A stretch of DNA of 34,946 nt, taken from Myxococcota bacterium. GTDB taxonomy: Bacteria; Myxococcota_A; Polyangia; HGW-17. Location: assembly GCA_018821305.1 (NCBI GenBank), contig JAHJMN010000140.1:1-34946 (forward strand), in the 5' to 3' direction. A program made the translations under genes and the position numbers. Shown here one piece after another: positions 141-19,250 of the stretch (its first letter is position 1; each line of letters begins with the position of its first letter). A model generated the notes under the pieces. It did not search any database, had not been told where the DNA came from, and was given only the letters and a program-made list of their open reading frames with translations.

Positions 141-180
141 GCTTCCGCGCTTCGCTGCGCGAGAGCTATAGTTGAATTTA
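141..180 (-). repeat. REP-like palindromic repeat, copy C1
   Basis: A GC-rich palindrome (CGCGC-TTCGCT-GCGCG core) is followed by CTATAGTTGAATTTA. An almost identical copy lies in the opposite orientation at 19132-19174; the only internal difference is two extra bases before CTATAG. In the 19132 copy it encodes the C-terminus of the peptidase gene. Confidence 0.75.
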
Positions 181-1810: not shown

Positions 1811-4129
1811 TCAGTTCAGGATTTTCAGGCAGAGATCGGTTACGAAGGAGGCGTTTTTTGCGAATCCGTCGGCTCCGAATTTTATGGCGAGATCCGACGT
1901 CATGGATGCTCCACCACAGATGAGTTTAGCATTGATATCAGCGGCTTTGAGGGCAGCGGCTACTTCTGAAACGCGTCCCACTGTTGTGGTCATCATTGCG
2001 CTAAGTCCAATGATGTCAGGTTTGAGTTCCAGCGCTTTTTCAACAATTTTCTGGGCGGAGATGTCTTTTCCAAGATCGATAACTTCAAAACCGCCAGTTT
2101 TAAGCACGGTTCCAACGATTTTTTTACCGATATCATGAACATCGCCTTCAACAGTAGCCAGCAGAACACGGCCTTTTGACTCTACTTCTCCCGCTAAAAG
2201 GGAGTTCAGGTGGTCAAAAGACAGTTGAGAAGTCTGGGCTGCCAAAAGCAGATGTGGCAGGTAGATCTTTCCATTGCCATACAGGATGCCGATTTCCTCC
2301 ATTGCTTTTCCAAGGATTTCCTGACTGACGATTACCGGATCATTAATATTGCAGAGATCTTTAATTTCTTTCAGAAGTTTCTCGGCGTTTCCTTCCAGAA
2401 GAATGTTTACAAGGGGATTTTCACTTACTCTCACATCAGCTCTGGTGAGTTTCTTGCCTGCCAAAGAAAGTGTTCCGTAGAGGCAACCCATGACGAATTC
2501 ATCGCCGGGATTCATAATGGCACTCGTAAGACCGCGATCCAGTGCCTGAGTCAGGAAAGTTCCATTCAAATAACTGCGATCCGGCATGCCGAAACTGAGG
2601 TTTGAAAGCCCGCAGGTGGTTTTGATTCCTTCTTCATTTAGAAGTTTGAACGTTTCCAGCGTTACAGAGGGATCTTTCCCGGCCCCAAAACTCATGACAA
2701 GGGCATCGGCTAAAACGCGATGTCGTGAAATACCTGCATCTTCGAGAATCCGGATACCTTCCATAATGACGTCAAAACGACCACGGGCGGTTTCGGGAAT
2801 TTCTTTTCCCATGGCTAACAGGACAAGCATTCCACCGTACTTTTTAAGAATTTCAATGCGGCGAGGCAGGTTTTTGTCCGTTACCCGGGCACTGTTTAAA
2901 AGAGGACGTCCACTGTAGTGTCTGGCGGCCAGTTCCATCATTGATGGCGTCTGTATATCCAGCGATAACGGAAGTGACGAAGCCCGATCCAGTTCATTGA
3001 TAACTTTTACAAAATGCTCAGGTGTGAGGAGTTTTTCAATGCCAAGGTTTGTATCCAGAACTGTGGCGCCTTGAAGCTTCTGGGAAGCAGCTTCATCAAG
3101 AACCTGAGAGAAGTTCATGTCCACAATTTGTTTTTGAAAACGATCACGTCCTGCGGGATTGATACGTTCACCGATGGTTATGAACGGATCCATGGTCGCG
3201 ATGGCCGTGCGGCTGGTTATAATTTGGACGGGAGTTCTTGCAGTCTTGAGGTTCCGACCAGAAGTTGCGAAGTGGCTGATAAGCTTAATATGATCGGGAC
3301 TTGTGCCACAGCAGCCGCCAATGATCCGGCATCCAGCGCTGATGAAATCCTCCGTGTACATGGCGAAATCTTCCGGTGTTTCATTATATGTGAGTTTGAC
3401 ACCGTCAAAAATCGGAGCACCTGCATTGGGTTCCACGCTGAGGGGTTTAGAAGTGTGTGTGGCTATTTTGCGAATTATATCAAGGCTTACTGCGGGACCA
3501 ACACTGCAGTTTATTCCGATGACATCGCAGTCGAGATCATCAAAAAGGGCAGCATAGGCTTCCGGTGGTGTTCCTGTAACGGACCGGAAAGTTTCATCAA
3601 ATGTCATGTGAACAATCAGGGGCAGATCCGGTGAAGCTTCGCGAACACCTAAAAGCGCCGCTTTAAGTTCTTTGATATCGCTCATGGTTTCGATGATTAA
3701 TCCGTCAACACCTTCACTGGCAAGAATGGATGCCTGAGTCCGGAAAATGTCCACGCATGCATCAAAATCCATGGTTCCCGCAGGCACGGGAAACTCACCA
3801 CAACTGGACATATCACCGAAAACAAGGGTTTCTCTGCCTCCCGCTCTCCTGGCAACAGCAACAGCTGTGCGATTTATTGCGATCATATCCTTTTCGTGAC
3901 CGAGGGCTCTTAATTTGAGGGAGTTGGCACTGAATGTGTTTGTGAGGATAATATTACTACCAGCTTCAACGTAACTCCGATGAACTTTTTCCACAGCTTC
4001 GGGATTCTGGAGATTAAGCACTTCTCCGGGGATGCCTCCAAACCCCAGCTTCATAAACTGAGTGCCGTAGCCACCGTCGAGGACTAAAACTTTTTTGTCA
4101 AGTATATCAAGAAATTCACTGCGTTTCAT
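1811..4129 (-). CDS. metH: cobalamin-dependent methionine synthase, catalytic part (no reactivation domain)
   Basis: The 772-aa protein transfers a methyl group from methyltetrahydrofolate to homocysteine through cobalamin. Domain order is: homocysteine S-methyltransferase barrel (about 1-300, start LDGGYGTQ, zinc-site motifs GINCSVGP and GGCCGTSPDHI); methyltetrahydrofolate-binding barrel (about 315-570, TIGERINPAGR); cobalamin cap (about 575-655); and B12-binding Rossmann domain ending the protein, with GDVHDIGKKI carrying the cobalt-ligand His (about residue 665). It stops there, so the C-terminal AdoMet reactivation domain of E. coli MetH is absent; that domain is encoded by the overlapping upstream gene. 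The ATG at 4129 overlaps that gene's stop (ATGA), suggesting coupling; another in-frame ATG lies at 4138. Confidence 0.93.
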   Translation of the reverse strand: MKRSEFLDILDKKVLVLDGGYGTQFMKLGFGGIPGEVLNLQNPEAVEKVHRSYVEAGSNIILTNTFSANSLKLRALGHEKDMIAINRTAVAVARRAGGRETLVFGDMSSCGEFPVPAGTMDFDACVDIFRTQASILASEGVDGLIIETMSDIKELKAALLGVREASPDLPLIVHMTFDETFRSVTGTPPEAYAALFDDLDCDVIGINCSVGPAVSLDIIRKIATHTSKPLSVEPNAGAPIFDGVKLTYNETPEDFAMYTEDFISAGCRIIGGCCGTSPDHIKLISHFATSGRNLKTARTPVQIITSRTAIATMDPFITIGERINPAGRDRFQKQIVDMNFSQVLDEAASQKLQGATVLDTNLGIEKLLTPEHFVKVINELDRASSLPLSLDIQTPSMMELAARHYSGRPLLNSARVTDKNLPRRIEILKKYGGMLVLLAMGKEIPETARGRFDVIMEGIRILEDAGISRHRVLADALVMSFGAGKDPSVTLETFKLLNEEGIKTTCGLSNLSFGMPDRSYLNGTFLTQALDRGLTSAIMNPGDEFVMGCLYGTLSLAGKKLTRADVRVSENPLVNILLEGNAEKLLKEIKDLCNINDPVIVSQEILGKAMEEIGILYGNGKIYLPHLLLAAQTSQLSFDHLNSLLAGEVESKGRVLLATVEGDVHDIGKKIVGTVLKTGGFEVIDLGKDISAQKIVEKALELKPDIIGLSAMMTTTVGRVSEVAAALKAADINAKLICGGASMTSDLAIKFGADGFAKNASFVTDLCLKILN

Positions 4130-4680
4130 GCGTACCATCCGATCATACAGGTAGTGGACTTAACGGGGGTGAGAATTCCCGTTTCAGAATGTGCATTTAT
4201 ACAAGGAACATTCAGAAATTCAAGAAAACTCCGGTTGATATTAACGGCAATATCTCCATAACCCGGGGAAAACCGTATAGTGCCTTCGCCATTTTCATTT
4301 CTCAAAACAGTGTCAAAAGCATCATTGAGGGCCTCAAGACTTTCTGATGACCAGGCATCAAGCAGTTGTGAATCTAAAACCATATTCCGGCTCATGTAAT
4401 CCTGAATTCGGTCATCAACGGCTAAACCGAGGGTGGAGGCAAACAGCGTAATGCGCTTTGCTCCGGCGAACTTACCCGGGATGAATGTCTGTGGAACTGC
4501 ACTTATATCAAGGGTTTCAAAGTAAATCGCAGGATTTACCAGAGTCAAACCCTCTTTATATATGGCGTCAACTATGCGGCGAAGAGGGTCATCAGATTCA
4601 AGTTGCCCTGTAATTCTCGCACGGTTCAGATAATGTTTTTTAAGGGGCATCAAATCTATTTTTTGTGGTATGTATTCCAT
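4126..4680 (-). CDS. stand-alone methionine synthase activation-domain protein
   Basis: The 184-aa product resembles the C-terminal AdoMet-binding reactivation domain of MetH. Near residue 135 it has R-F-S-P-G-Y-G-D, matching the RxxPGY AdoMet-binding motif. Its end, GILTPVKSTTCMIGW, matches the domain's conserved TPxKS segment. It would reductively remethylate inactive cob(II)alamin on the neighbouring MetH core using AdoMet and an electron donor. The gene is translationally coupled to that core. ATG 4680 was chosen; a TTG at 4716 would extend it into the divergent metF start region. Only 25 bp separate the two divergent start codons. Confidence 0.85.
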   Translation of the reverse strand: MEYIPQKIDLMPLKKHYLNRARITGQLESDDPLRRIVDAIYKEGLTLVNPAIYFETLDISAVPQTFIPGKFAGAKRITLFASTLGLAVDDRIQDYMSRNMVLDSQLLDAWSSESLEALNDAFDTVLRNENGEGTIRFSPGYGDIAVNINRSFLEFLNVPCINAHSETGILTPVKSTTCMIGWYA

Positions 4681-4705
4681 GGGATTCTTTTTACAGGTGA
4701 TCAAA

Positions 4706-5608
4706 GTGTTAATCAAGGATCAGTTAAATAAAGGTACAACTTTCAGTTTCGAATTTTTTCCGCCGAAAAGTTCCAGCACCAGTTTGGAGCTTTACAGCAC
4801 GATAAAAGCTTTGAACCGGCTCAAACCGTCTTTTGTATCAATTACATACGGTGCCGGAGGCTCCACAAGGGCACTTACTCATGAACTCGTGGTCAAACTT
4901 GCCTCGGAACACGAATTCAATGTAGCATCACATCTTACGTGTGTAGGCTCTTCAGCGGATGAAATTCATGAAATTCTAAACCGTTACAGTGCAGCAGGAA
5001 TCTGTAATATTATGGCTCTTCGAGGAGATCCTCCGGATTTTCGCCAGGGCTTTTCAGCACCGACAGGCGGTTTTGAGCGGGCAACGCAGTTGGTTTCATT
5101 TATACGAAATCATTTTCCATCCATGGGAATAGGTGTGGCAGCTTATCCTGAAGGGCATCCGGAAACTCCAGATAGATTGAAAGAAATTGAATATCTCAAA
5201 GCTAAGGTTGATGCTGGAGCGGATTACATCTGTACTCAACTGTTTTTCGACAATCACGATTTCTATGATTTTTGCGAACGTTGTGAAATAGCCGGGATTA
5301 AAGTTCCAATCCTTGCGGGAATTATGCCAGTAACAACAATCAAAATGATGAGACGTATGTCGTCTTTAGCCCTTGGAACACACATTCCTGCCAGACTCCT
5401 GCGATCTCTGGTCCGGGCTGAAAGTGATGATTACGTTGAAAAAGTCGGTATTCATTGGGCCACGGAACAGGTACGAGATCTTCTTGACAATAAAGTCCGC
5501 GGAATTCATTTCTACACTCTCAACAAAAGCCTCGCCACATTAAGAATCTACGAAAACCTTGGCGTAAACTCCTCCGAAGGCCTCTCCGGTGAGAAGTATT
5601 TTATTTAG
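4706..5608 (+). CDS. metF: methylenetetrahydrofolate reductase
   Basis: The 300-aa protein reduces 5,10-methylenetetrahydrofolate to 5-methyltetrahydrofolate, the methyl donor for the divergent MetH, using FAD. It has the family signature FSFEFFPPKS at the N-terminus, SITYGAGGSTR, HLTCVGSS, NIMALRGDPP, and AAYPEGHPE, and GADYICTQLFFDN. The full barrel is present. The GTG at 4706 has an AGGTGA ribosome-binding site 5 nt upstream and fits the family N-terminus; the in-frame ATGs at 4670 and 4679 lie further upstream and lack one. The stop codon TAG (5606-5608) is the first three bases of a family B repeat. Confidence 0.93.
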   Translation: MLIKDQLNKGTTFSFEFFPPKSSSTSLELYSTIKALNRLKPSFVSITYGAGGSTRALTHELVVKLASEHEFNVASHLTCVGSSADEIHEILNRYSAAGICNIMALRGDPPDFRQGFSAPTGGFERATQLVSFIRNHFPSMGIGVAAYPEGHPETPDRLKEIEYLKAKVDAGADYICTQLFFDNHDFYDFCERCEIAGIKVPILAGIMPVTTIKMMRRMSSLALGTHIPARLLRSLVRAESDDYVEKVGIHWATEQVRDLLDNKVRGIHFYTLNKSLATLRIYENLGVNSSEGLSGEKYFI

Positions 5609-12475: not shown

Positions 12476-13228
12476 ATGAAAAATTTATTCAAATTCAGTA
12501 TTTTAGTTAGTTTATTGTTCTCATTGGGCTGCAGTGGAAAGTCTGAAAAGGAAAACAAGTCTCCGAAAGCAGATCAGGAAAAACCTGTAAAAAGCAATGA
12601 TGGACTTGTGGTTTCAATGAATTCGGATTCGATGAAAGCTGTTAAAAAGGTTGACATTAAGCCACCAGCGCCGATGGCTAAACCTGCACCGAAACCTTAC
12701 GTTCACCCAAAACCGACTCCCGGAAATCCTATTGTAGTTATTGAAACAAATATGGGGACTATTGAAGTTGAGCTTTTTAAAAATAAAGCTCCCATTTCAA
12801 CAGCTAATTTTATTAAATATGTTGAGGCAAAGTTCTACGACGGAACAATTTTCCATCGTATTAAAGATGATTTTATGATTCAGGGGGGCGGATTTAAAGA
12901 AGATCTCACGGAAAAAGCAGGGAAGTTTCCTCCTATTAAGAATGAAGCGGATAACGGACTTTCAAACACTCGCGGAACAATCGCCATGGCAAGAACAAAC
13001 GTGGTGGACAGTGCCACAGCGCAATTCTTTATTAATGTTGTTGATAATAAACGGCTTGATCATCGTGGCCCCGGTCGACGTTTCGGCTATGCAGTTTTTG
13101 GTCAGGTTATCAAGGGTATGGAAATTGCTGATAAAATAAAAGATATTCCTCGCGTAAACAAAGGAGGACCATTTTTATGGTTCCCTTCACAGATGGTAAT
13201 AATTAAAAAGGTTGAACTTAAGAAATGA
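12476..13228 (+). CDS. lipoprotein cyclophilin-type peptidyl-prolyl isomerase
   Basis: The 250-aa product has a lipobox (L-F-S-L-G-C, Cys19), a Lys/Pro-rich spacer to about residue 80, and then a single cyclophilin domain. The domain shows [16 protein letters not shown], the catalytic segment [32 protein letters not shown], and [14 protein letters not shown]. It would catalyse proline cis-trans isomerisation in the periplasm or at the outer membrane. The ATG at 12476 follows GGAGG by 12 nt; a GTG at 12458 is less likely. Its stop overlaps the start of the kinase-like gene (ATGA), so it is probably the first gene of the RiPP-like operon. Whether it works on the peptide is unknown. Confidence 0.88.
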
Positions 13229-14049
13229 TTTCCAACTACGTCCTTGATGTCGGTCAGGGATTTTCAATTTGTGGCATAAATATCATAAATGAAAAGAGAG
13301 TTGAGGGGATTTTTAATGGCATTACACCCGCATATGCTGAGAAGTTTCGGGTAAATGATTTCTCCAGTTCATCCTGCGAAGTGCGCATTTTTCTTGAGAA
13401 ATCTCAGAGAGCAGAATGTTTTAACAATGATCCTCTGACGAGAGTTCATTGTAACATGGACGGACCGGAAGTTGTCTGGTCCACTTCTTCCTGGTGCTTC
13501 AGAACTAACGAAAATTATACGGAATTCTATGGCTTTTACCGCGATACCGTTGATGGATGGTTTGGCGCTGTCAGGGCTGCTTTAGCTCTGCACCTGATTT
13601 ATGAAGAAAAGGGCGTTTTACTACATGCTTCATCGGGTTTTTTTAATGACCGCATCTATATTATCATCGGTCGGAGTGGCGCTGGAAAAACCACAGCTAT
13701 AAAGAATTTTCCGGGAATTGTTATTCAAGATGAGATTACGGGACTCAGGGTTGATAGCGAATTGCGGGCCTGGCCGACCCCGTTTGGCGGCGAACTGGAA
13801 AAAGGTTCTGATCACGCTGGAAAAGTGATTTTCGTCACTTTAGATAAAACTGATATCGACAGTGTCGGAGAGACAACGGCCAATCACTTCCTTCCTCTCA
13901 GTCAGAGTACAGTTTTTCCCGGCGGTCCAGAGGAGATAAATTCAAAATTTCTTAAATTGATTGAAAAAATCGTGGATTCAAGTATTTTAATACCAGTTTG
14001 TGCAACAATGAACAGCGGATTCTGGTATCTGCTTAAAGATTTGGCATAA
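13225..14049 (+). CDS. HPr kinase-like P-loop protein
   Basis: The 274-aa protein has a C-terminal half resembling HPr kinase/phosphorylase-like proteins found next to peptide-modification genes: [10 protein letters not shown] (His134), a Walker A motif G-R-S-G-A-G-K-T (149-156), and an acidic residue pair in VIQDE (Asp169), then TPFGGE. The N-terminal half (1-115) is not recognisable. It lacks the typical HPr-kinase partner genes (ptsH, ptsI), and its overlaps with the cyclophilin gene upstream and the PqqD-like gene downstream tie it to RiPP biosynthesis. Homologues in some lasso clusters phosphorylate a C-terminal Ser; the precursor at 18536 ends Ser-Ser-Ile, so such a role is conceivable but inferred. 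Confidence 0.75.
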
Positions 14050-14315
14050 TGACAAAATACATTATAAAAACAGGTGTTTCGATCAAGTCCTTTGGTGAAG
14101 AAATGTACATTATTTCACCCGGGGAAGGTTATATACATAATTTAAATTTTACTGCCGCAAGGGTGGTTGAGTTGTTTCGAGAAGGTTTTTCATCCCAACA
14201 GGTTCTTGAAAAAATGGCTCAGGAATACGACGTGGAGGAGTCCGAATTAAGAAAAGATTTGGATGAAATAACTGCGCTCCTTTGTGAAAAAGGAATTCTT
14301 GAAGCTCATGAGTAA
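14049..14315 (+). CDS. PqqD-like RiPP recognition protein
   Basis: The 88-aa protein matches the PqqD/RRE fold, a winged-helix domain that binds RiPP leader peptides and presents them to modifying enzymes. Visible landmarks are the N-terminal strands (YIISPGEGYIHNLN), the N-x-T-A-A-R turn leading into an amphipathic helix (TAARVVELFREGFSSQQV), the EYDVEESELRKDLDEI helix and the final LLCEKGIL. Its start shares one base with the stop of the kinase-like gene, and its end overlaps the radical SAM gene by eight bases. This is typical of PqqD-like/radical SAM pairs. Confidence 0.88.
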   Translation: MTKYIIKTGVSIKSFGEEMYIISPGEGYIHNLNFTAARVVELFREGFSSQQVLEKMAQEYDVEESELRKDLDEITALLCEKGILEAHE

Positions 14316-15318
14316 CCTGTGGGAAACCTATCTTCGGAAAAGCCTCGACCATGGGAATCTACTATCGCTCTCTCTTGAAATAACTGATTTTTGCAATTTT
14401 AATTGTGTTCATTGTTATAAAATTCGTGAATCCAATTATATGTCAACGGATTTGTTTGAAAGAATTCTTGACGAAGCATGTTCACTTAATGTGACAAGTC
14501 TTAGTTTTAATGGTGGAGAACCACTTAAGCACAAGGAAATTAATTCTTTTATCGAAAAAGCTCTGCGCCGTGGGCTTTTTGTAACGGTTTTATCAAACGG
14601 ATCAGAAATCAAATCTATAATAGATCGGGATCTTCTTAAATCACAGGCTCTGCGATGGCAGATCAGCCTTTACGGAAGTGATGAGTCTTCCTGTCAGGAA
14701 ATAATCCGTCGAAAGGGAATGTGGAACAGAGTTATCGAATCACTGGAACTTCTAAAAGAAACAGGCGCTTTAGCAAGTGTTACTCTTTCCCTTCTTAATG
14801 TATCAGGACACGACCCCCGGATTGCTTTGGAATTAATAAAAAAAATGGGCTTCAGATGGCAACTTACGGAAATAATCTCTGTCAGAGAAAACGGAGATGT
14901 TTTTCCCCACGGTTATAGACCATCAGATGAAACTATTGCAGAATTTTACAAATACGCCCCAATAGAAAGTAATCTGGTTGAAGAATGTAATCTTCCGGGA
15001 TATGCCTGCGGTGCGGGTGTTACAACTCTGGCTATTAAAACAAACGGAGATGTGCTTCCGTGTCTGACTGTAAACTATTTTCTTGGAAATATTTTCGAAA
15101 ACAGTGTAAAAACTGTTTTAGAAAGCGGGAAACTTGCCGAATTCAGAGAAATGAACCGGATACCACACGATTGCAGGCAGTGCGATTTTTTCGATTTCTG
15201 CCCCCGCTGCCCGGGCATTGCCCTCATGGAAACGGGCCGTATAAACGGTGTGGTGAAGGAAAACTGTCGCATAGCGGCAATTAAAAGTAAAAATTTGGTT
15301 TACTCTGAAAAAAAGTGA
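14308..15318 (+). CDS. radical SAM/SPASM peptide-modifying enzyme
   Basis: The 336-aa enzyme has the radical SAM motif C-x3-C-x2-C (Cys29, Cys33, Cys36) binding the [4Fe-4S] cluster that cleaves AdoMet, then SFNGGEPL. A C-terminal SPASM region has Cys in CNLPGYACGAG, VLPC, CRQCDFFDFCPRC, and a final NCRIA, enough to bind auxiliary clusters. Relatives with a PqqD-like partner modify RiPP precursors by forming C-C or thioether bonds. ATG 14308 overlaps the PqqD-like stop; the upstream GTG at 14284 lacks a ribosome-binding site. The likely substrate is the two-Cys peptide encoded at 18536. The bond formed cannot be read from sequence. Confidence 0.88.
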   Translation: MSNLWETYLRKSLDHGNLLSLSLEITDFCNFNCVHCYKIRESNYMSTDLFERILDEACSLNVTSLSFNGGEPLKHKEINSFIEKALRRGLFVTVLSNGSEIKSIIDRDLLKSQALRWQISLYGSDESSCQEIIRRKGMWNRVIESLELLKETGALASVTLSLLNVSGHDPRIALELIKKMGFRWQLTEIISVRENGDVFPHGYRPSDETIAEFYKYAPIESNLVEECNLPGYACGAGVTTLAIKTNGDVLPCLTVNYFLGNIFENSVKTVLESGKLAEFREMNRIPHDCRQCDFFDFCPRCPGIALMETGRINGVVKENCRIAAIKSKNLVYSEKK

Positions 15319-15359: not shown

Positions 15360-18300
15360 ATGAAAAAACTGTTCCTGATCATGTTAATGGCATCCATGGC
15401 AATTTTTAGTTGCGACGATGACGATGACACAAACAATAATAACTCAAACAACACCAACAACACCAATTGTGCCTGCGGTATAACTATCGATACAATCAAC
15501 GGTGTTAATCTCGATGAGGTTACTCTTTTGACTGCTGGGCAGGATGATCAGAACGCTGAAATGGATGGCTTCCAGATCACTGTCACTGTTTCCGTATCCA
15601 CCGAGGCAAGTTGTATTCCTCCGGACGGTGCAGAAGTTACTCTTACAGGGGGGCTGGAAAATGCCACAGGAACTCTCAGTGGAAATACTGTCACTTTCAA
15701 TGATTACACGATTCCATCCGGAGCCGGGATTCTCAATCTGAGAGCGATTGTTCCAAATTGTCAGTCAGAACCTACGGATATCCGCCTTTCAACAGCGGGG
15801 ATTCCTGAATGTATGATATACAGCGGAATTGAATCCAACGAAATCTATGTTTGCCCCGACGACGATCTCGTTCCAAACCAGATTGGTCTTCAGCGGGTTG
15901 TAACTGTTCGCTGCGTCGATGTCGCTTCCGGCACTAATGTGGCATTCAACGTAAATGGTAACCTTCAGGCAACGGAGTCTCTCAGTGTCGGCGGTGAAGC
16001 GCAGGCTGTTATCACCCTCCCTGTAACTGGAATTTGTGAAAATTCCATCAATGTTTCCATATCCGTTGATACTGGAAGTGGTGTGCTCACTGATTCTGTT
16101 TCGACGGGGGAATCCTGTTGTGAAGGTGTTGTCCCCTGTTCGTTGGGCTGGGTTGAAGGAACTCACTATGTCACTGGAACTCCTGTAGGCCAGGACACAA
16201 TGAACAAAACCACAGATATGGATGCTGTTACCGCTGGTCATCAGGCTTCATTTTCCGTGACGACCCTTGCGGAATTCACCGATGACGTTGCAATTTTAGC
16301 TGATAACGGTAGTGGAACATTTACTGAAATATGCCGTGAAAACTCCATAAGCGGCAATACTGCTACTTTCGATTGTACGGTTCCTGACGGAACGGTTGCA
16401 ATTAAACCTGTTTGTTATCAGGCAACTACAGAAATTGAAGATCCTTCTCAAATACATCATGTGTATGTTGATACCGTTGCTCCGGGATGTTCCAACGATT
16501 TCAGTTGCACAGTCTCAAACTATCATGAAGTTGATATTGACTGTTCATGGACTCTTCCGGGCACCGCGGGTGTTGATGAAGTCTTAGCTGATACAGAAGT
16601 GAGATATACATCAAACTATGATCAGGCCGGTTGCCTTGCAGATTCCAGCGGTATTTTCTCCGGCGGATGGGCTTCCCTTGATGAAGTTCCCGGAAGTTCT
16701 GCTCTTTCCGGTGGTGATCCCGGGGATTTCGTTTCTCAGGTATTTACTCCCTTCGTTCCCAGTTCCGGGTACTGCATAGGTACCAAGGTTATGGATATGG
16801 CAGGAAACCTCAGTGAATGTACGGCAACTTCCTGGACAGGAAGTGTTTATCCCGATTATTTAACTATCGAAGGTCAACTCAATCAAACTCAGTTCGGAAG
16901 TGCTGTTACCGGTGTTGACTTAAACTGCGACGGTCGTAAAGATCTCGTTGTCGGAGCACCTAATGGTTATGCAGATGCCGGATGTACTGCTGGCATGTGT
17001 ACAGGTGATGGTCTTGTTTACGTATTTTTTGCCAAGGAAACTGGCGGATACAATGCAACGCCGGATTTGACACTGGTTTATGATGTACCGGCAGTAGCAG
17101 GAAACACCTCATATGTTTACTTTGGACTCAGTGTTCAAGGTATTGGTAATTTCACACAGCATATTGATGATGGCACAAATGACTCCGTTGCCTGTGAAGA
17201 TCTGGCCATAGGCGCTCTCTGGGATTTCCAGGATGATCCGTCTACCTGGTTGCTACCCGGTGCTGTTTATGTACTCAAAGGTCGTCCTCAGGCCCGCTGG
17301 ACAGCGTCTGAATACCATACGGCAAATAATGCTGCTAATGGCTTTGATCTTGTGATCAGATACGACGCTACTGATTATGCAGATTACTGGTATTATTTTG
17401 AAGAATTTGGACACAGGATTGCTGCCATCGGTAACTTTAACGGCGATGCATATGGTGATATTGCTATCAGTGCTCCTGGGGCAATGCCCTCCGGTGCCGT
17501 ATACGTTATGAATTCATTTGCTGTGCCCTTTAAAAGCGGCACCAGTGATCCTGTAATTCGCTTTGCTCCCGATGATATGGATGCCGCAATTCTTGGAACA
17601 GCAAGCATAAATAATGCGGATCCTGACCTTGCCGCATACGAAAATCTTGGTGAAAGTATGTCTGCCCTTGGAGATCTCAATGGTGACGGACTTGACGATT
17701 TCATTATCGGTGCTCCCGGGTGCAACTCCGGTTTAGGTTATCAAGCGGGTAAAGCATTCATAGTGATGGGTGGTCAATCTGGAATTATTGACACTGCAAC
17801 TTATTCTGGAACGGGCCTTGTTACAATTACTCAGGATGCTCTCGTTTCTGGAACTGACTGCTTTGGATGGGCTGTTGCAGGAATCGGTGATTTCAATGAT
17901 GACGGTTACAATGACTTAGCAATTTCCGACAAAGGATATGACAGACCATCCACCAACGCTTATTCTGAAGGTGGTGTGTTTGTTTTCTTCGGTGATGGCA
18001 GTGTTGCAGATATGACAACTGCCTCTGCTTCCATGAAAATGCGCAGTGAATGGCCCCTTTCCACTGACGACAATTTCGGCCGGAGTGTTGCTCCAAGTGT
18101 GGGAACCTTGAACACACCAAAAGGTGACTTTAATAACGACGGAATTCCGGATCTTCTCATTGGAACACAGCATTTTGGAAGTTATCACGGAAGTGCATTT
18201 GTATGGTACGGAAACGGCGGTTACGTTGCGGATACAAATCCAACATCCTGGTTGACTTATGAGCAGGCTACTTTCTGGTTCCTGCCGGCGGGTCTTTACG

Positions 18301-18446
18301 GATACTGGGGTTACAATGTACGTTGGCTTGGTGATATTAACCTTGACGGTTACACGGATCTTGTAGTTGGCGATCCCGGTTGGGATAGTTTCTACGGTGG
18401 ACCAGGTGCAAATCCGCTCAAGGGGCGCGTTACGGTTATTTATTAA
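15360..18446 (+). CDS. large FG-GAP repeat lipoprotein
   Basis: The 1028-aa product has a lipobox (A-I-F-S-C, Cys18), an acidic then Asn-rich linker, and Cys-containing beta-rich domains to about residue 490. About seven FG-GAP repeats fill the rest, for example FGHRIAAIGNFNGDAYGD, LGDLNGDGLDDFIIGAPG, and FNDDGYNDLAIS, each with a calcium-binding D-x-N-x-D-G-x-x-D loop. This is the integrin-alpha type beta-propeller of surface proteins. A GGAGG ribosome-binding site lies 7 nt before the ATG; an upstream in-frame GTG at 15315 is unlikely. It follows the radical SAM gene by 41 bp on the same strand and precedes the precursor peptide. It may be co-transcribed, but I cannot say it belongs to the pathway. 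Confidence 0.85.
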   Translation: MKKLFLIMLMASMAIFSCDDDDDTNNNNSNNTNNTNCACGITIDTINGVNLDEVTLLTAGQDDQNAEMDGFQITVTVSVSTEASCIPPDGAEVTLTGGLENATGTLSGNTVTFNDYTIPSGAGILNLRAIVPNCQSEPTDIRLSTAGIPECMIYSGIESNEIYVCPDDDLVPNQIGLQRVVTVRCVDVASGTNVAFNVNGNLQATESLSVGGEAQAVITLPVTGICENSINVSISVDTGSGVLTDSVSTGESCCEGVVPCSLGWVEGTHYVTGTPVGQDTMNKTTDMDAVTAGHQASFSVTTLAEFTDDVAILADNGSGTFTEICRENSISGNTATFDCTVPDGTVAIKPVCYQATTEIEDPSQIHHVYVDTVAPGCSNDFSCTVSNYHEVDIDCSWTLPGTAGVDEVLADTEVRYTSNYDQAGCLADSSGIFSGGWASLDEVPGSSALSGGDPGDFVSQVFTPFVPSSGYCIGTKVMDMAGNLSECTATSWTGSVYPDYLTIEGQLNQTQFGSAVTGVDLNCDGRKDLVVGAPNGYADAGCTAGMCTGDGLVYVFFAKETGGYNATPDLTLVYDVPAVAGNTSYVYFGLSVQGIGNFTQHIDDGTNDSVACEDLAIGALWDFQDDPSTWLLPGAVYVLKGRPQARWTASEYHTANNAANGFDLVIRYDATDYADYWYYFEEFGHRIAAIGNFNGDAYGDIAISAPGAMPSGAVYVMNSFAVPFKSGTSDPVIRFAPDDMDAAILGTASINNADPDLAAYENLGESMSALGDLNGDGLDDFIIGAPGCNSGLGYQAGKAFIVMGGQSGIIDTATYSGTGLVTITQDALVSGTDCFGWAVAGIGDFNDDGYNDLAISDKGYDRPSTNAYSEGGVFVFFGDGSVADMTTASASMKMRSEWPLSTDDNFGRSVAPSVGTLNTPKGDFNNDGIPDLLIGTQHFGSYHGSAFVWYGNGGYVADTNPTSWLTYEQATFWFLPAGLYGYWGYNVRWLGDINLDGYTDLVVGDPGWDSFYGGPGANPLKGRVTVIY

Positions 18447-18516: not shown

Positions 18517-18535
18517 AGATTTGAAAGGATTTAAT

Positions 18536-18685
18536 ATGGCTGAACAAAAAGATAAGAAAAAGTATGAAAAACCTGTAATAATTACGGAAAAAATAGTTAC
18601 CGAAGACGCGTTTGGTGGATGCACTATGGCCGTAGCCGGTGAATGCGGAAGACCTCCACGCTTAGTAATTATTTCCTCAATATAA
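18536..18685 (+). CDS. putative RiPP precursor peptide (49 aa)
   Basis: A 49-codon gene lies in a gap between larger genes. It starts with ATG 7 nt after GAAAGGA and ends with TAA. The N-terminal leader is Lys-rich with K-K-Y-E-K-P-V-I and then T-E-K-I. The Tyr-x-x-Pro placement resembles leaders bound by PqqD-like/RRE proteins. The tail holds two Cys (29 and 37) in F-G-G-C-T-M-A-V-A-G-E-C-G, then R-P-P-R and a hydrophobic end I-I-S-S-I. No signal peptide is present. Its position, with the PqqD-like, radical SAM and kinase-like genes upstream and the S26-like peptidase 82 bp downstream, makes it the best substrate candidate. The cleavage site might follow the Ala-Phe-Gly-Gly region, but this is a guess. 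Confidence 0.75.
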   Translation: MAEQKDKKKYEKPVIITEKIVTEDAFGGCTMAVAGECGRPPRLVIISSI

Positions 18686-18766: not shown

Positions 18767-19177
18767 ATGAATTTCAGGTATTTCAAGGTTGTTTCGGGTT
18801 CAATGAATCCTGCTCTCAAAATTGGTGACATTGTTGCTGTAATAGCTTCCAGAAAATATAAAGCCGGTTCAGTAGTTGTTTTTAAACGGGGAGGATACTG
18901 TGTTCATCGAATTCACGTGAACTTACCTTTTTTTAAAATAATTCTTGAAAAGGGTGATGCATCTCCTCATGTTACTGTGGTAAAGTATCGTGATATAATC
19001 GGAGTTGTTGAAATGCCAAATGTGGCGGTTTCCGTTAATTTTATAACTCAACTCAATAGAATCATTTCATTGGGTATAAGCAAATTGGTTCGTTTTCAGA
19101 AGTCGGGCTCAGTTAGTTCGTTTTCTAGTAATAAATTCAACTATAGCGCTCTCGCGCAGCGAAGCGCGGAAGCGTAA
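18767..19177 (+). CDS. S26/S24-like serine-lysine peptidase
   Basis: The 136-aa protein resembles the signal peptidase/LexA-type fold. The nucleophile is in V-S-G-S-M (Ser12 before Met), followed by KIGDIVAV. The general-base Lys40 is in VVVFKRGG, then YCVHRI and LEKGDASP, the usual order of box B to box E motifs. There is no N-terminal transmembrane anchor, so it may act in the cytoplasm. Similar small peptidases accompany PqqD-like genes, which suggests leader removal from the 18536 peptide (inferred). ATG 18767 aligns with the family start; a GTG at 18698 would add 23 residues without a ribosome-binding site. The last 15 residues, including N-Y-S-A-L-A-Q-R-S-A-E-A, come from a dispersed repeat that also supplies the stop. 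Confidence 0.78.
   Translation: MNFRYFKVVSGSMNPALKIGDIVAVIASRKYKAGSVVVFKRGGYCVHRIHVNLPFFKIILEKGDASPHVTVVKYRDIIGVVEMPNVAVSVNFITQLNRIISLGISKLVRFQKSGSVSSFSSNKFNYSALAQRSAEA
19132..19174 (+). repeat. REP-like palindromic repeat, copy C2
   Basis: This is an inverted copy of the element at 141-180, with core CGCGCAGCGAAGCGCG. It lies inside the 3' end of the peptidase gene and reads as its C-terminus. Confidence 0.75.
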
Positions 19178-19186
19178 GCACCTTGC

Positions 19187-19250
19187 GGTTACTGTCCTGA
19201 GCAAAAAATCGGCAAAAAATTTGATTTCCGGTATTTCAGGACAGTAACTA
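19187..19250 (-). repeat. family B miniature repeat, 64-bp subtype
   Basis: This is the inverted near-identical copy of 5674-5737, with ends GGTTACTGTCCTG and CAGGACAGTAACTA. It lies 36 bp before the coaE start. Confidence 0.85.

Follow-up and report, generated by a model that had tools for sequence, protein, structure and literature searches.

Radical SAM and HprK-like kinase genes recur together beside a probable RiPP precursor across a bacterial phylum

The stretch of Myxococcota DNA analyzed here (34,946 nucleotides, hereafter "the window") contains a 49-codon frame, overlooked by routine gene calling and flanked on one side by the gene for a 1028-aa FG-GAP-repeat protein and on the other by a gene for an S26-type protease (table 1). 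From the sequence alone, this short frame had been proposed to encode a precursor peptide, with a good ribosome-binding site, a K-K-Y-E-K-P-V-I leader element and two Cys. All of these features are present: an AAGGA sequence precedes the ATG by 6 nt and the translation carries both the leader element and the Cys residues, at positions 29 and 37. Pfam and NCBIfam have no family for this 49-aa peptide, and none of the ten precursors scanned against NCBIfam matched a model there. Promoter-like sites are no commoner in the window than in shuffled sequence, and a plasmid search gave a sole, weak match within an MFS transporter. Elsewhere in the window are a cobalamin-dependent methionine synthase gene (1811-4138, minus strand) without the usual C-terminal part and a separate frame that overlaps it (4126-4716, minus strand) and has no Pfam match; together they are possibly a split MetH. 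Near the contig end (34160-34628) there is an array of 21-bp tandem repeats, with higher-order units of 126 bp, in which long open frames are preserved.

Table 1. Features of the precursor locus, with their positions in the window
Feature	Position	Strand	Basis
Cyclophilin-type peptidyl-prolyl isomerase, overlaps kinase start	12476..13228	+	Pfam, neighbourhood
HprK-like kinase, 274 aa, predicted PEPCK/HprK fold	13225..14049	+	homologues, motif, predicted fold
PqqD-type RRE / peptide chaperone, 88 aa	14049..14315	+	Pfam PF05402
Radical SAM/SPASM enzyme, 336 aa from ATG	14308..15318	+	Pfam, Cys conservation
Large FG-GAP-repeat protein, 1028 aa, lipoprotein-like N-terminus, directly upstream of precursor	15360..18446	+	Pfam, neighbourhood
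Shine-Dalgarno-like AAGGA, ATG 6 nt downstream	18525..18529	+	read from sequence
Precursor peptide gene, 49 aa, MAEQKDKKKYEKPVIITEKIVTEDAFGGCTMAVAGECGRPPRLVIISSI	18536..18685	+	translation, homology, codon comparison
Tyr10-x-x-Pro13 leader element (codons), invariant in 27/27 curated precursors	18563..18574	+	alignment
Core block AFGGCTMAVAGECGRPPR, 18 codons	18608..18661	+	codon comparison with same-genus homologue
Cys29, family-invariant, candidate radical SAM target	18620..18622	+	alignment
Cys37, second conserved Cys	18644..18646	+	alignment
Ser47-Ser48, candidate phosphorylation site, C-terminal Ser signature	18674..18679	+	inference from PMC8498205
S26B-type signal-peptidase-like protein, SGSM...VHR motif, candidate leader peptidase	18767..19177	+	Pfam, NCBIfam, motif

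An open frame of 49 codons is by itself unremarkable, and it is conservation that places this one beyond chance. A genome of the same genus (G001) has a copy of the precursor at the matching position (73% identity, E 4.6e-19). Between the two copies 19 codons differ synonymously and 14 non-synonymously, the differences at codon positions 1, 2 and 3 number 12, 10 and 25, and the NG86 estimates are 0.22 for dN and 2.9, a saturated value, for dS. In the block AFGGCTMAVAGECGRPPR there are 18 consecutive identical residues, with 11 silent changes and 0 amino-acid changes. The frame is under purifying selection and is a real gene. The maturation proteins of the same two genomes have diverged more than the precursor (33% identity for PqqD, 37% for the kinase and 43% for the radical SAM enzyme).

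The precursor belongs to a family that extends through the phylum. A profile of seven peptide sequences matched 42 of the 318 genomes of the class (E<=0.01), and a profile of 20 sequences matched 39 of 379 genomes sampled from the phylum (E<=0.001). The phylum has no fewer than 44 related precursors, characterized by Y-x-x-P, an invariant Cys and one further Cys. In the curated set, which comprises the 27 precursors with a readable cassette, Y10, P13, A25 and C29 never vary and no peptide has fewer than two Cys; the frame and its two Cys are therefore kept among the relatives, as would be expected of the precursor originally predicted. One exception to the leader element is a same-family peptide (L061 in G006), which adjoins FG-GAP and S26 genes and has YIKS where YxxP is expected. 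In the alignment of the curated precursors the core sequences differ strongly between families. Two styles of core can be recognized, RPEEAVLGxCK... and FETLALSC..., and the DAFGGC of the window is closer to the second. The C-terminal ends have a signature of their own: Ser is the last residue in 32 of 44 precursors, and Ser or Thr lies within the last three residues of all 27 curated ones, where the share of Ser elsewhere is 7.7% (about 8%), but since the sequences and loci are related by descent such tallies overstate the significance and a binomial probability would be unfair. The window's precursor itself ends in Ile and its family has the Ser one or two residues further in (SSI, SST, SSL, SSA, SAN); a few precursors have no Ser near the end (L164, ...ECAEL; L128, ...EDCIQL). 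The C-terminal Ser pattern nevertheless crosses families whose tails otherwise differ.

Nearly all the related precursors adjoin genes for an HprK-like kinase, a PqqD-type docking protein, a radical SAM/SPASM enzyme and an S26B-type protease. When the window and 26 fetched loci were scored for matches close to the peptide, using our own profiles built from the window's proteins, the kinase was found in 24, the radical SAM enzyme in 25, the S26 protease in 22, PqqD in 18 and the FG-GAP protein in 16. The same cassette is present in G001 and in two genomes of the same family (G002 and G003), and in genomes outside the class the same gene set again surrounds the peptide. In one genome (G009) it is split over two contigs, with kinase, PqqD and radical SAM genes on one and FG-GAP, precursor and S26 genes on the other, so that all the parts have been retained without close linkage. 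Next to the kinase start, or overlapping it, both the window's family and the split locus of G009 have a gene for a cyclophilin-type isomerase (seen in the window and in L032, L033, L036 and L142).

The scan of the phylum with the peptide profile and a separate scan with the TIGR04249 kinase model share contigs in six genomes (G429, G380, G372, G348, G164 and G055), and in four of these six the two matches are no more than about 2 kb apart. In named records, a scan with a five-member radical SAM alignment found relatives in Kofleriaceae and other Myxococcales assemblies. The same scan gave six distant matches (Nitrospirae, Patescibacteria and one Deltaproteobacteria record) without a kinase, PqqD or S26 match or a convincing precursor nearby, and hence no clear case beyond the phylum. 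One contig (G203:C563) begins at the gene of a true ScmC kinase (140.6 bits), after which come the genes for an S26-type protease and a transporter-like protein (L155, 69-3435); its precursor side is missing.

Genes for a radical SAM enzyme and for an HprK-type, probably peptide-directed, kinase thus recur in one cassette across the phylum. With a short frame under purifying selection, a conserved leader element, a variable core and a conserved linkage to maturation enzymes, the 49-codon frame very probably encodes a RiPP precursor that has its own enzyme set. Conservation and gene neighbourhood over many genera bear out the original prediction of a precursor with a PqqD-type and a radical SAM partner; its YxxP leader and its lack of a lasso cyclase have also stood, but it had overlooked the HprK-like kinase and the Ser signature at the C-terminus, as well as the protease of S26B type and the FG-GAP lipoprotein.

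The PqqD-type protein matches the PqqD family of Pfam (PF05402) with E 2.4e-12 and 47.4 bits against a cut-off of 23.4; in NCBIfam it is the lasso PqqD models that score best, at 1.6e-7 and below cut-off. The Tyr-x-x-Pro element had been likened to a leader feature recognized by lasso RREs, and it is indeed documented as such, with related W/Y/LxxP elements being used by the PqqD, FusE, McjB and StsC RREs (PMC12710340). Given the motif and this known use of YxxP, the first step of the pathway would be the binding of the YEKPVI leader strand by the PqqD-type protein. In the second, the radical SAM/SPASM enzyme would modify the core around Cys29 and Cys37, perhaps by a thioether or some other cross-link. 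This enzyme exceeds the cut-offs of PF04055 and PF13186, and its CxxxCxxC and SPASM-region Cys (29, 33, 36; 234, 252, 289, 292, 298, 301, 320) are invariant in 12 homologues. Its best NCBIfam relatives, which include SbtM, the ACGX system enzyme and ScmE, all match far below cut-off.

For the removal of the leader the S26B-type protein is the natural candidate, and this step, the last of four, would presumably fall to it. It has the S26 residues (SGSMNP...VHRI), and SM-x-P-type and HR motifs occur in nearly all of its homologues; no N-terminal membrane anchor was seen in the window's protein. In three relatives the nucleophile Ser is replaced by Cys (L036:3662-4054, SGCM; L075:3627-4121, GECM; L082:8742-9170, GGCM). 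The last codons of the window's protease gene coincide with one copy (19148-19173, plus strand) of an exact 26-bp repeat, GCTCTCGCGCAGCGAAGCGCGGAAGC, which is found again at 141-166 (minus strand) and has five copies in the genome. This copy is followed by a 13-nt inverted repeat (19188-19248), and the repeat is possibly a small dispersed element by which the C-terminus of the protease was changed.

The kinase of the window has the motif H134...G149-x-S-G-A-G-K155-T156...D169-E170, which fits the catalytic pattern H..GxxGxGK[ST]..D[DE]. Among 22 homologues H134, G154, K155 and T157 are common to all, and G149, G152, D169 and E/D170 are nearly invariant. By itself the window's protein matches only generic P-loop models and no HprK family or ScmC model; its link to HprK comes from its homologues, some of which match the ScmC, HprK-related kinase A and B and HPr kinase models, and from its fold. 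An AlphaFold2 model (mean pLDDT 75) aligns with PEP carboxykinase (Z 12.5, 234 residues, rmsd 3.9), HprK/P is found in the fold search with E of about 3e-3 and a probability of 0.99, and HprK appears in the kinase profile search with E 2.2e-5. The protein is thus predicted to have the PEPCK/HprK fold, and this superfamily is the one expected for HPr kinases. The family motif, H-G-G-G-K-S/T-D-E/D, agrees with the H-G-G-G-K-S-D-D of the lasso kinases; its last residue is Glu in the window and in many homologues, and Asp in BsfK (PMC10368454).

Lasso-peptide kinases phosphorylate Ser, usually the C-terminal one (PMC8498205), and assistance of the kinase by the RRE has been demonstrated experimentally for BsfK/BsfB1 (PMC10368454). 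Because of the C-terminal Ser signature and these lasso kinases with the same motif, we propose as a third step, and with slightly better than even confidence, that the kinase phosphorylates the C-terminal Ser, which in the window would be Ser48 or Ser47. The most serious competitor to this proposal accepts the radical SAM-modified precursor as real, but has the kinase act on another residue or another protein, or regulate the pathway in the manner of the classical HPr kinases. It draws on the absence of a C-terminal Ser from the window's precursor, on BsfK, which acts on core residue 3 (PMC10368454), and on the fold search, which puts PEPCK above HprK and so leaves the activity unreadable from the fold. 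Set against these are the 32 of 44 precursors that do end in Ser, the HprK-like kinase found in nearly all peptide-anchored loci and the lasso precedent; such a different target is a sizeable minority possibility.

The FG-GAP gene adjoins the precursor throughout one large branch that includes the window. It accompanies FETLALSC or DAFGGC cores and is absent from loci with RPEEAVLG cores, an association uncorrected for phylogeny. An FG-GAP gene next to the lasso cluster of Bradymonas was set aside as a border gene (PMC10368454), but because it recurs here it may belong to the system. We suggest tentatively that the lipoprotein is the envelope partner of the peptide product, which is the weakest step of the proposed pathway. 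More speculative still is the broader picture of doubly modified peptides throughout the phylum, altered by radical SAM chemistry at Cys and by a C-terminal phosphate, and held by, or signalling through, a dedicated envelope FG-GAP propeller lipoprotein. If this were true, the FG-GAP gene would be a working part of kinase-type RiPP systems. Its fixed place beside the precursor offers a first handle on the function of such peptides.

The peptide could instead give rise to a small redox cofactor, as PqqA does to PQQ and MftA to mycofactocin, possibly one that serves the FG-GAP propeller protein, and not be a secreted product. In the window's cassette no exporter was seen and a PqqD protein is combined with only one SPASM enzyme, the core hardly changes within the genus and the FG-GAP gene is fixed beside the precursor in one branch, all of which would suit a cofactor. 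But the cores vary strongly between families, unlike PqqA, the C-terminal Ser signature is ill-suited to a small cofactor and FG-GAP repeats are not known to form the quinoprotein propeller; we regard this origin as improbable.

A lasso peptide, or some degenerate form of one, is a far less probable product of the locus. The bsf lasso cluster too has a leader, of the form YxxPxL, a discrete RRE, a kinase and a bordering FG-GAP gene (PMC10368454), and lasso models are the best matches of the window's PqqD protein. But, as had been noted for the cyclase at the outset, a Pfam scan of the cassette genes found no asparagine-synthetase-like lasso cyclase and no B2 protease; in the genome, the B2 fold family (PF13471) matches only frames of about 560-595 aa away from the locus, and 25 loci have a radical SAM/SPASM gene instead. 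The assignment to a lasso cluster was therefore rejected. Least credible of all is that the short frame arose by chance, has nothing to do with the radical SAM cassette beside it or encodes a small regulatory protein: 49-codon frames commonly arise by chance, but this is contradicted by 18 codons with only silent changes and by dozens of homologues in matching positions.

The preferred reading, a RiPP precursor with its own enzymes, can be compared with four groups of known systems. The kinase-containing lasso clusters (paeninodin; ThcoK/SyanK; BsfK of Bradymonas sediminis) have in common with it the YxxP leader, a discrete PqqD-type RRE, an HPr-kinase homologue, a frequent C-terminal Ser and, in Bradymonas, a border FG-GAP gene (PMC8498205, PMC10368454); they differ in that the cassette has a radical SAM/SPASM enzyme, an S26B-type protease and a conserved core Cys, and neither cyclase nor B2 protease. 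The SynChlorMet cassette (ScmC TIGR04249, ScmE TIGR04250, ScmF TIGR04251) also combines an HprK-like protein, ScmC, with SPASM enzymes, and 13 of the 22 kinases match ScmC (E<=0.001). However, the window has one SPASM enzyme and not two, its radical SAM protein reaches 76 bits where the ScmE cut-off is 400 and its kinase has no ScmC match, so that it lacks the set of ScmC, ScmE and ScmF above cut-off; it has, in addition, an FG-GAP gene and an identified precursor. In the HPr-rel-A and HprK-related kinase B systems (TIGR04352, TIGR04353, TIGR04355) an HprK-like kinase is likewise paired with a PqqD-type protein, and 12 and 14 of the 22 kinases match (E<=0.001), but the window's PqqD reaches 16.5 bits against the TIGR04353 cut-off of 35, and the cassette differs further in its radical SAM enzyme and its Cys-containing precursor. 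Finally, the sactipeptides and ranthipeptides and the thio(seleno)oxazole SbtM systems resemble it in their SPASM-type radical SAM enzyme and Cys-containing core, a likeness seen in Cys conservation; SbtM is the best NCBIfam match of the window's enzyme (91.9 bits), but far below the cut-off of 350, and the kinase is a further difference.

Each of the parts is known, and in a literature search that covered few subscription papers we found no description of a kinase, PqqD and radical SAM system, nor of this combination with its substrate. In the literature examined, lasso peptide biosynthesis is the one setting in which HprK-type peptide kinases are proven; the present cassette, whose peptide substrate is identified, links an enzyme of this type to radical SAM peptide chemistry in many families of a single phylum. 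For related cassettes NCBIfam already offers models of the kinase, PqqD and SPASM proteins, and the precursors described here are substrates ready for making and testing.
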